The position numbers were made by a program, and so were the translations under genes. From contig JACNGE010000006.1 in NCBI GenBank assembly GCA_014384285.1, positions 62,001 to 126,000 of the forward strand: a stretch of 64,000 nucleotides of DNA, read 5' to 3'. This DNA comes from Actinomycetota bacterium. GTDB lineage: Bacteria; Actinomycetota; Acidimicrobiia; Actinomarinales; Actinomarinaceae. Of the stretch, positions 1,711-49,410 are shown in pieces. The stretch's first letter is position 1. Every line of letters starts with the position of its first letter. The notes beneath the pieces were generated by a model. It saw nothing but the letters and a program-made list of their open reading frames with translations. It made no database searches and was not told the origin of the DNA.

Positions 1711-1760
1711 TGTTGCGTGATGTCATAAAGTGTCATATAATGTCAGAAAGTGGTTCAAGG
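1711..1760 (+). promoter_or_regulatory. Putative MraZ operator / dcw promoter: five tandem 10-bp units starting TG(T/G), overlapping a -10 TATAAT (1736-1741) and -35-like TTGCGT (1713-1718)
   Basis: tgttgcgtga|tgtcataaag|tgtcatataa|tgtcagaaag|tggttcaagg; the two hexamers are separated by 17 bp. Confidence 0.7.
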
Positions 1761-1776: not shown

Positions 1777-2202
1777 GTGTTCCTTGGTGAATATAAACAT
1801 ACAATGGACTCGAAGGGTAGAGTAGTAATTCCTTCTAAGTTCAGAAAAGAGCTTCAACAGGGCTGTGTAGTTACTAAGGGACTAGATAATTGTTTACAGA
1901 TTCTTACAAAGAAAAACTGGAACCAAGAATCTGAAAAAATGGCATCTCTGCCTTCAACCGATAAAACTTCTCGACAGCTGAGAAGAGCTTTGTTTTCTGG
2001 CGCAGTAGACTCATCTTTAGATTCTGCAGGCAGAATACAAATACCAGAAAATCTTAGGATGTATAGCAACATCAAAGAAAATGATGACGTTACTGTTACT
2101 GGTTCTGGACCTGTCATTGAAATTTGGGCAACAAAAACCTGGAAAAAAATTCAAAGTGATTCTGATGATGCATTTGCAAATATCAATGAAGTGAAAGGAT
2201 AA
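1777..2202 (+). CDS. mraZ: Division/cell wall cluster transcriptional regulator MraZ
   Basis: FLGEYKHTMDSKGRVVIPSKFR and SLDSAGRIQIPENLR, two AbrB/MraZ repeats. GTG at 1777 preferred over 1750 (preceded by AAAGGCGGAGAA). Confidence 0.95.
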   Translation: MFLGEYKHTMDSKGRVVIPSKFRKELQQGCVVTKGLDNCLQILTKKNWNQESEKMASLPSTDKTSRQLRRALFSGAVDSSLDSAGRIQIPENLRMYSNIKENDDVTVTGSGPVIEIWATKTWKKIQSDSDDAFANINEVKG

Positions 2203-2210
2203 GTTCATAG

Positions 2211-2287
2211 CCAGCTCTCTAGACAACTAAATTGGAATACCCTTACTCCGCCCAACTTTCCAATTGGAGCCAGTTCTAGAGAGCTGG
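2211..2287 (+). ncRNA. Structured cis-regulatory RNA candidate in rsmH (mraW) 5' leader; possible mraW RNA motif
   Basis: Perfect 13-bp outer stem CCAGCTCTCTAGA (2211-2223)/TCTAGAGAGCTGG (2275-2287); 8-bp inner stem AATTGGAA (2230-2237)/TTCCAATT (2258-2265); asymmetric internal loop; 20-nt apical loop tacccttactccgcccaact. Confidence 0.6.
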
Positions 2288-2289
2288 GT

Positions 2290-3207
2290 ATGAATACAAA
2301 CAGGGCAGGGTATTTACCACATAGTGGTGTTATGGCTGGAGAGCTAACTTCAATGGTTGAACAGCTTCCTAGCGGTACTTTTATTGATGCTACTTATGGA
2401 TATGGATCACATTTTGAATTATTAAAAAAGTATACTCATCTAAATTTAATTGGATTTGACAGAGACTATGAAGCTGTTTCCTCAAGTAGCAAAGAAAATC
2501 TAGTCTATAAATCAAACTTTTCTGATATTCCTAATTTTCTTATTGAGATGAACAAAACACCTATAAGTGGAATTTTTTATGATTTTGGCCTCTCTTCCCA
2601 TCAGATTGACTCACAGCAACGAGGATTTTCATTTCAACAAAGTAGTGAACTAGACATGAGAATGGACCAGGAAAGTGAGAAGACAGCCAAGGAGGTAGTT
2701 AACAATTATTCCTTTGAAGAGTTGTTGGATGTTTTCAATAAATACAGTGAAGATAAATTTGCATATTTGATTTCACAAAAAATTGTGGAAGAACGACCCA
2801 TAGCTACAACTTTGGAATTAGTTGAGGTAATCAAAAATGCTTTACCAAAACAAAATCCTATCTACACAACAAAAACAATTAGAAGAATATTTCAAGGTAT
2901 AAGAATTGAAGTTAATGAAGAGTTATCAGAAATCAAGTCGGCACTTGAGGGAATTAAAAATCACATACAGTCAAATGGAGCAATAATCTGTATTTCCTAT
3001 CACTCTCTGGAGGATAAAATTGTTAAAACGTTCATGAACGAGGTTACGACTTTTTGCTTATGTGATCCGAAGGCACCTATATGTAGTTGTAATACAACAC
3101 AAGAGTTTAGATATTTCAAGAAAAAAAAGTATTCGCCCACTTCAGAAGAAATCTCAATAAATCCCAGAGCTAAGTCTGCAATTATGAGAGGAGTTTTAAA
3201 ACTATGA
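2290..3207 (+). CDS. rsmH: 16S rRNA (cytosine(1402)-N4)-methyltransferase RsmH
   Basis: FIDATYGYGSHFELLKK, GFDRD, DFGLSSHQID...RGFSF, SYHSLEDKIVK motifs. Confidence 0.97.
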   Translation: MNTNRAGYLPHSGVMAGELTSMVEQLPSGTFIDATYGYGSHFELLKKYTHLNLIGFDRDYEAVSSSSKENLVYKSNFSDIPNFLIEMNKTPISGIFYDFGLSSHQIDSQQRGFSFQQSSELDMRMDQESEKTAKEVVNNYSFEELLDVFNKYSEDKFAYLISQKIVEERPIATTLELVEVIKNALPKQNPIYTTKTIRRIFQGIRIEVNEELSEIKSALEGIKNHIQSNGAIICISYHSLEDKIVKTFMNEVTTFCLCDPKAPICSCNTTQEFRYFKKKKYSPTSEEISINPRAKSAIMRGVLKL

Positions 3208-15025: not shown

Positions 15026-15627
15026 TCAAATCTTCACTATTAGAGAATAGTTATTTTAGTAACAAAAATGACGGAGTTGATTTAAGTAACATCATAAGGA
15101 GTGTCTATTCTGAGAAGGCAGCGCTCCTTAATGTTGCTAAAATGAATCAGACTCATAGTAATGAAGTCTTAGAAGTCTCAACTGAAGGTAAATATAATTC
15201 TGACGGAATTTTAACGAGTGAAAAAAAACTAATACTAGCTGTGAAAACTGCTGACTGTATGCCAGTTTTAGTCACCGATCACAAATCAATTGCCGCAATA
15301 CACATAGGTTGGAGAGGTTTATTTAGCAATATATTTCAGGAAGCACTAAACAAATTGTCAGGTGTTAATACAAAAGTTTCAATTGGACCGCATGCTAAAA
15401 GTTGCTGCTATGAAGTCAAAAAGGATGTAGCTAATATTTTTCCAGATTACATAGAGACTAAAAATAATAAACTTTATCTGAATCTTTCAAAAAGTATCAA
15501 AGATTATTGTGAGGAAAAGAAAATAGAAATAGAAATATCTGAAATTTGTACTGTATGTAGCGATGAGTATTTTTCATATAGAGAAAGTAAAAGTAAAGAA
15601 AGACAGATATCGTTTATATGGATATAA
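15022..15627 (+). CDS. pgeF: Peptidoglycan editing factor PgeF / multicopper polyphenol oxidase (YfiH) family
   Basis: QTHS, KTADCMPVLV, HIGWRGL, SIGPHAKSCCYEV motifs. Confidence 0.9.
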   Translation: MIKSSLLENSYFSNKNDGVDLSNIIRSVYSEKAALLNVAKMNQTHSNEVLEVSTEGKYNSDGILTSEKKLILAVKTADCMPVLVTDHKSIAAIHIGWRGLFSNIFQEALNKLSGVNTKVSIGPHAKSCCYEVKKDVANIFPDYIETKNNKLYLNLSKSIKDYCEEKKIEIEISEICTVCSDEYFSYRESKSKERQISFIWI

Positions 15628-49038: not shown

Positions 49039-49410
49039 ATGGAAATAAGTAAAGAACATTTATCAGAAGAACAAATACAGGTCACACAATTTTGTGGAAC
49101 CGAACCACCATTTTCAGGTAAATTGCTTAATGAAAAAAGAGAAGGTACTTATATTTGTGCAGTTTGCAGAGAAGCCCTATTCGATTCTACTTCTAAATAT
49201 GACTCCGGATCAGGTTGGCCAAGTTTCTTTGATGCTGCGGAGGGTAAAATATCAACAAGAGTTGATACATCCTTAGGCATGACAAGAACTGAAATTCTAT
49301 GTAAGAACTGTTCTTCTCACCTAGGACATGTATTTCCAGATGGACCACAACCTACAGGAAATAGATACTGTGTAAATAGCTTAAGTATGGACTTTAAAGT
49401 TCATGAGTGA
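49039..49410 (+). CDS. msrB: Peptide-methionine (R)-S-oxide reductase MsrB
   Basis: [49 protein letters not shown]. Confidence 0.96.

Follow-up and report, generated by a model that had tools for sequence, protein, structure and literature searches.

A conserved hairpin over the rsmH start codon in an actinobacterial class and its possible role in translational control of rsmH

We analyze a 64,000-nucleotide stretch of actinobacterial DNA (hereafter, the window) in which the genes mraZ and rsmH flank a spacer with an unusually stable hairpin, an arrangement that is the same in congeners and in other members of the class. The listed mraZ open reading frame begins at GTG 1750. Indels among congeners sit just upstream of GTG 1777 rather than behind it; this codon comes after AAAGGCGGAG, opens the conserved FLGEY and is the likelier start. 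A promoter-like TTGCGT-N17-TATAAT lies upstream of mraZ, within window positions 1713-1754, and overlaps three to four RTGTCAnAnA / AGTGG repeats that are spaced by about 10 nt and conserved in congeners; these are candidate MraZ-binding repeats controlling the operon. Directly upstream of the mraZ promoter, at 1180-1692, is a gene for an HNH endonuclease (PF14279, PF01844).

Folding of the window places in the mraZ-rsmH spacer a 13-bp outer stem (2211-2223/2275-2287), an internal loop, an 8-bp inner stem (P2) and a 20-nt apical loop (Table 1), all of which had been proposed in an earlier note on this DNA and were recovered at exactly the same coordinates upon refolding. The earlier note had also described the structure as ending 2 nt before the rsmH ATG, which proved too short, as the helix actually runs on to 2294. 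Past a G-G mismatch (2210/2288), A2209 pairs with U2289 and UUCAU (2204-2208) pairs with AUGAA (2290-2294), and the complete outer stem (P1) is a 20-nt inverted repeat that is 95% complementary. Since the repeat reaches 2294, the rsmH start codon is itself paired (2290-2292 with 2206-2208). The hairpin is thus confirmed as real and as longer than first stated.

Table 1. Coordinates of the leader element and its flanking genes in the window
Feature	Position	Strand	Evidence or remark
mraZ, probable GTG start 1777	1777..2202	+	Pfam PF02381, E=1.2e-33
P1 5' arm	2204..2223	+	Inverted repeat; model R1 match 2204-2294; P1 covaries across the class
Internal loop, 5' side, asymmetric	2224..2229	+	Fold
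P2 5' arm AATTGGAA	2230..2237	+	Fold; P2 pairs supported across the class
Apical loop UACCCUUACUCCGCCCAACU	2238..2257	+	Fold; single copy in the window
Loop core ACUCCGCCC	2245..2253	+	2248-2253 CCGCCC = 16S rRNA 1399-1404
P2 3' arm TTCCAATT	2258..2265	+	Fold
Internal loop, 3' side GGAGCCAGT	2266..2274	+	Near-invariant alignment block; class consensus GGYRCCAGCGC
P1 3' arm, rsmH start codon inside	2275..2294	+	Inverted repeat; 72/79 type I elements likewise
rsmH (mraW)	2290..3207	+	Pfam PF01795, E=7.2e-83
Possible loop partner GGGCAGGGUA, rsmH codons 5-8	2303..2312	+	Window genus only

The hairpin has a minimum free energy of -41.4 kcal/mol (z = -4.1), a stability that none of 200 shuffles equaled, and it is the lowest-energy fold among 10,650 segments of 100 nt taken from both strands of the 64 kb. 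When stability is corrected for GC content, its minus-strand version ranks first of all segments and its plus-strand version second, above both tRNAs. The next unusually stable folds after this correction lie at 49249-49348 (minus strand, z -4.6) and 15049-15172 (plus strand, z -4.2). The strongest evidence for the hairpin is comparative, namely its near-invariance in 36 congeners and its covariation across the class.

Judging from the 1.1-Mb AT-rich genome, the genus is probably Candidatus Actinomarina and the class Acidimicrobiia. Within the window genus, rsmH is present in 37 of 42 genomes, and the loop sequence occurs, as one copy each, in exactly those 37. Among the 36 congener elements that were read, 80 of the 86 spacer columns are invariant. 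The mean pairwise identity of the spacer across 26 species is 98.7%, versus 75% for the adjacent end of mraZ and 63% for the start of rsmH. For RNase P RNA of the same genus, mean identity is 88.7% and no 86-column stretch has more than 72 invariant columns; within this genus, the element thus surpasses a core ribozyme in conservation.

Specific to the window genus is a possible pairing of the loop with rsmH codons 5-8 (GGGYNGRGUA). Of all sites within 350 nt of coding sequence, this one forms the best duplex with the loop in almost every one of the 36 congeners; its variants preserve the pairing by means of G-U, and for Arg the site uses AGG in 36/36 cases, compared with 5.8% elsewhere in the same gene starts; support from codon shuffling varies widely between species. 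Such loop-to-coding pairing is possible in the window genus only. As a general feature, a loop-to-coding pseudoknot was rejected, with a mean z of +0.69 in 67 other sequences and no pairing in other families. We also rejected a model in which looping-out of the hairpin brings a Shine-Dalgarno sequence at the end of mraZ (GUGAAAGGAUAAG) close to the AUG: GAAAGAA and GAAAUAA variants occur within the genus, and the sequence is not universal.

The element extends well beyond the genus. Hairpins with the loop CCCCUUACUCCGCCCG were found in the mraZ-rsmH spacers of other families (29 genomes of the class), and covariance models R1 and R2 match 22 of those 29 genomes. R1, which was built from seven elements of other families and contains no sequence of the window genus, matches the window at 2204-2294 with 47.1 bits and E=4.9e-7 (a rough value, since calibration was short), and this is its sole match in the 64 kb. 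Across the class, R1 matches at least 175 of 395 genomes and at least 70 of 184 genera, mostly with one copy each, counts that are lower bounds because the filters were strict. All R1 matches over 297 genomes of the phylum fall within the window's class, as do all R2 matches over 397 phylum genomes, and the element is absent from about 25 rsmH spacers read in other actinobacterial classes.

One form of the element, type I, was aligned in 79 elements representing 72 distinct sequences of the class. Two-sided changes occur in 23 of its 28 pairs and 93.6% of cells are paired, whereas none of 500 shuffles reaches any of five covariation measures and slid controls support at most 10 pairs; fitting the alignment to the structure, and kinship among the sequences, bias these figures upward, but the gap is nonetheless large. 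The earlier note had suggested looking for compensatory changes in homologous spacers, and these are the changes found here; its interpretation is supported in so far as the hairpin is a conserved structured RNA in the rsmH mRNA, with the 3' arm lying over the translation start. In a second form, type II, the same P2 loop is joined in a three-way junction by a hairpin, P3, carrying GGAGAMAW, and 36 of 38 pairs covary. Taken together, the alignments indicate that the element is a new, earlier uncatalogued family of structured rsmH leader RNAs with two structural forms.

Upstream of the type II element, five loci (L163, L164, L166, L169, L172) carry a conserved TTGACAGGYG and a hairpin. The 3' half of this hairpin can alternatively extend P1, and a two-state switch is possible in type II. 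A different switch, in which GCCAGC of the internal loop pairs with GCUGGC of the P1 3' arm, was rejected: it shows no covariation, and 34 of 72 sequences are unpaired at the diagnostic pair.

The pattern of non-Watson-Crick pairs tells at which level the structure is selected. With the six outermost pairs excluded, G-U and A-C cells stand at 53:15 in type I and 76:13 in type II, and this large excess of G-U means that the structure works in the RNA, on the sense strand of rsmH, and not as an inverted repeat in DNA. A DNA-level element (a protein-binding inverted repeat or an internal promoter) would agree with a near-perfect repeat whose two arms are fully conserved in the genus, but we hold it to be very improbable given that G-U replaces G-C or A-U far more often than A-C does, that compensatory changes occur throughout, that the asymmetric loops are conserved, and that a promoter-like site with repeats already exists upstream of mraZ. 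Ribosome bypass or readthrough yielding an MraZ-RsmH fusion can be dismissed with still greater confidence. Although rsmH follows mraZ in frame across an open spacer of 87 nt in the window and in most congeners, two congeners (L012 and L029) are one base short, different codons precede the stop (GGA, GGT, GAA, AAA), and spacer length varies freely between families; we rejected the fusion on these three points.

Under a strict motif rule, at least 72 of the 79 type I elements have the rsmH start (ATG in 64, GTG in 8) among the final bases of P1, and four of the seven exceptions merely carry HxPA instead of HxPV. In those type II elements where a start can be placed, it most likely lies 8-66 nt beyond P1 in the majority of cases; direct occlusion is therefore a feature of type I and not the whole story in type II.

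The most likely function of the element is translational control of rsmH. We consider it likely that it is a structured leader in which occlusion by P1 represses rsmH and the conserved loop is the recognition site of a regulator. According to this model, the spacer would encode a leader RNA within the mraZ-rsmH mRNA, P1 would bury the rsmH start codon and block translation unless it is opened or kept from forming, and P2 would present the near-invariant C-rich loop to the regulator. In the window genus, a ribosome terminating on mraZ, one base before P1, could open the stem and so couple translation of the two genes. A protein bound to the apical and internal loops, both near-invariant, could favor the closed state. 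The conserved RNA structure, the paired start codon, the two near-invariant loops and the sense-strand action are observed; repression by occlusion and a loop-binding regulator are what we infer from them.

Translational coupling could in principle suffice by itself, with P1 opened only by ribosomes finishing mraZ and no ligand involved. In the window, a single base separates the mraZ stop codon from P1, so that a ribosome ending translation there would sit over the 5' arm of P1, and the start codon is within the stem. Coupling of this kind needs the stem alone, yet the apical and internal loops are among the most conserved parts of the element, and in other families P1 starts about 18-59 nt after the mraZ stop, past simple reach. 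We regard pure coupling as unlikely.

Another use of a long duplex would be cleavage by RNase III, either separating the mraZ message from that of rsmH or freeing the hairpin as a small RNA that would use its C-rich loop to target G-rich ribosome-binding sites in trans. The P1 helix is nearly perfect over 19-20 bp and exceeds that length in several type II folds; the loop is C-rich, and type II starts mostly lie outside P1. This proposal strikes us as improbable, since it leaves unexplained the steady placement of the start codon inside type I P1, and since action in trans needs no fixed synteny with rsmH, yet the element sits at 22 rsmH loci outside the window genus and, within the genus, its presence coincides exactly with that of an assembled rsmH. 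We give less credence still to a small-molecule riboswitch, sensing, for example, the cofactor of RsmH, S-adenosylmethionine, or a precursor of the cell wall. The conserved apical and internal loops, and the type II three-way junction with GGAGAMAW, do resemble a binding core, but no similarity to Rfam riboswitches was found in the window or in the class members searched, the type I core is small, its loop is a C-rich single strand, and the window holds no second copy despite several wall-synthesis genes.

For the leader model, the sequence of the loop itself suggests what the regulator might be. In type I, CCGCC is present in 79/79 elements and the next C in 78/79, the preceding ACU is conserved at 95-97%, and the following G at 92%. 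The best match of the 10-mer ACTCCGCCCG in E. coli 16S and 23S rRNA is 16S 1396-1405 (ACACCGCCCG), at 9 of 10 positions, with next-best matches of 7/10 in 16S and 8/10 in 23S. CCGCCC occurs a single time in E. coli 16S rRNA, at 1399-1404, and one study (PMC5053481) gives C1402, the fourth base of this hexamer, as methylated by RsmH. A 9/10 match at the segment covering C1402 arose in 792 of 40,000 composition-preserving shuffles (p about 0.02) and in 62 of 40,000 uniform random loops, and we treat it as a lead rather than proof because the likeness was noticed before it was tested. Some plausibility, though no more than that, comes from METTL15, a homologue of RsmH in humans, for which short h44 RNAs, single- or double-stranded, are ligands with a Kd of about 1-2 uM; this binding is without sequence specificity, as poly(A) is bound equally well (PMC10828496).

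We tentatively name RsmH itself as the most likely single regulator, one that would recognize a copy of its own 16S target. In a more specific and more doubtful version, the loop would be a decoy of 16S 1396-1405, and RsmH would bind its own mRNA and perhaps methylate C 2251, the equivalent of C1402. Autoregulation by substrate mimicry is a plausible hypothesis. A second likeness involves the internal-loop strand at 2266-2274, whose class consensus, GGUGCCAGCGC, resembles 16S 515-522 (GUGCCAGC, in the 530-loop helix); ACUCCG also occurs at 16S 510-515. Together with the match at 1396-1405, both likenesses fall near the decoding centre, possibly by chance.

The hairpin probably sets the amount of RsmH and may let RsmH control itself. 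Its importance is that of a new RNA family with very strong covariation at the head of a cell-division gene cluster; the class concerned probably counts abundant marine bacteria that are uncultured among its members. Unexplained leaders of the mraW type would also gain a concrete and testable mechanism, in that RsmH modifies a base in the very sequence that the loop carries. If autoregulation is true, its physiological sense would be to couple the supply of the enzyme to the amount of unmethylated small subunits, a coupling conserved through a bacterial class. It would also be a rare case, to our knowledge, in which an rRNA methyltransferase senses its substrate by way of a copy in its own mRNA, and would link ribosome maturation to the expression of division genes.

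The closest known RNA is the mraW RNA motif of Actinomycetales (Rfam RF01746; Weinberg et al. 2010, PMC2864571), of which the earlier note took the hairpin to be a member or a divergent relative. RF01746 does not match the window, either at its gathering score of 50 bits, the cut-off for membership, or at E <= 10; a scan of 20 genomes from the genus and the class yields no match, with C. glutamicum matched as positive control, and none of the further class members scored is matched. In the reverse direction, R1 and R2 at E<=10 match none of 14 loci, comprising 10 loci hit by RF01746 (L111-L120) and 4 other actinobacterial rsmH loci. As the models fail in both directions and the loops differ, membership is not supported and the element should not be filed as an mraW RNA. 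Kinship is possible only by analogy, in the shared gene, the spacer and a loop of the ACU(Y)C..CCCG type, and not in any mutual recognition of the models. Weak matches to Rfam microRNAs, far under their cut-offs, fit the long hairpin shape only, and we rejected membership in any Rfam family.

That the element is a genuine homologue of mraW RNA that has diverged strongly, which would be compatible with occlusion by a structured leader, seems to us rather unlikely. The spacer, gene and phylum are the same, and in mraW RNA the loop CACUUCCCCGG, with GCCAG after it, is reminiscent of ACUCCGCCCG ... GGYGCCAG; set against this are the two-way failure of the models over all class members and mraW loci tested and the lack of the element in rsmH spacers of the other actinobacterial classes sampled. 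Three Nanopelagicales-related contigs (L092:2638, L093:2556, L095:1155) have ACTTCCCCG..GCCAG upstream of rsmH, a putative mraW-like loop.

Like our element, mraW RNA is a structured RNA of Actinobacteria that lies in the mraZ-rsmH region upstream of mraW/rsmH and forms a long hairpin with a conserved terminal loop, and by analogy the element may work in the same way. The two differ in their taxa and in the loop, which is ACUUCCCC in mraW RNA, lacking CCGCCC, and ACUCCGCCC here; a start codon paired in the stem and a three-way-junction form set the new element apart.

The proposed logic is also that of autogenous leaders of rRNA-binding proteins, in which the leader imitates the rRNA site and the start region is held in structure. 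Autogenous translational control has a reported precedent in E. coli ksgA; our literature search for autoregulated rRNA methyltransferases yielded none. In contrast to ribosomal-protein leaders, the proposed ligand here would be an rRNA methyltransferase, and the imitated part would be roughly 9 nt of the decoding centre, placed in a loop. In translational-coupling hairpins, a long stem sequesters the start region by pairing it with bases that directly follow the upstream stop codon. The new element differs from such hairpins in having apical and internal loops that stay nearly invariant throughout a bacterial class.
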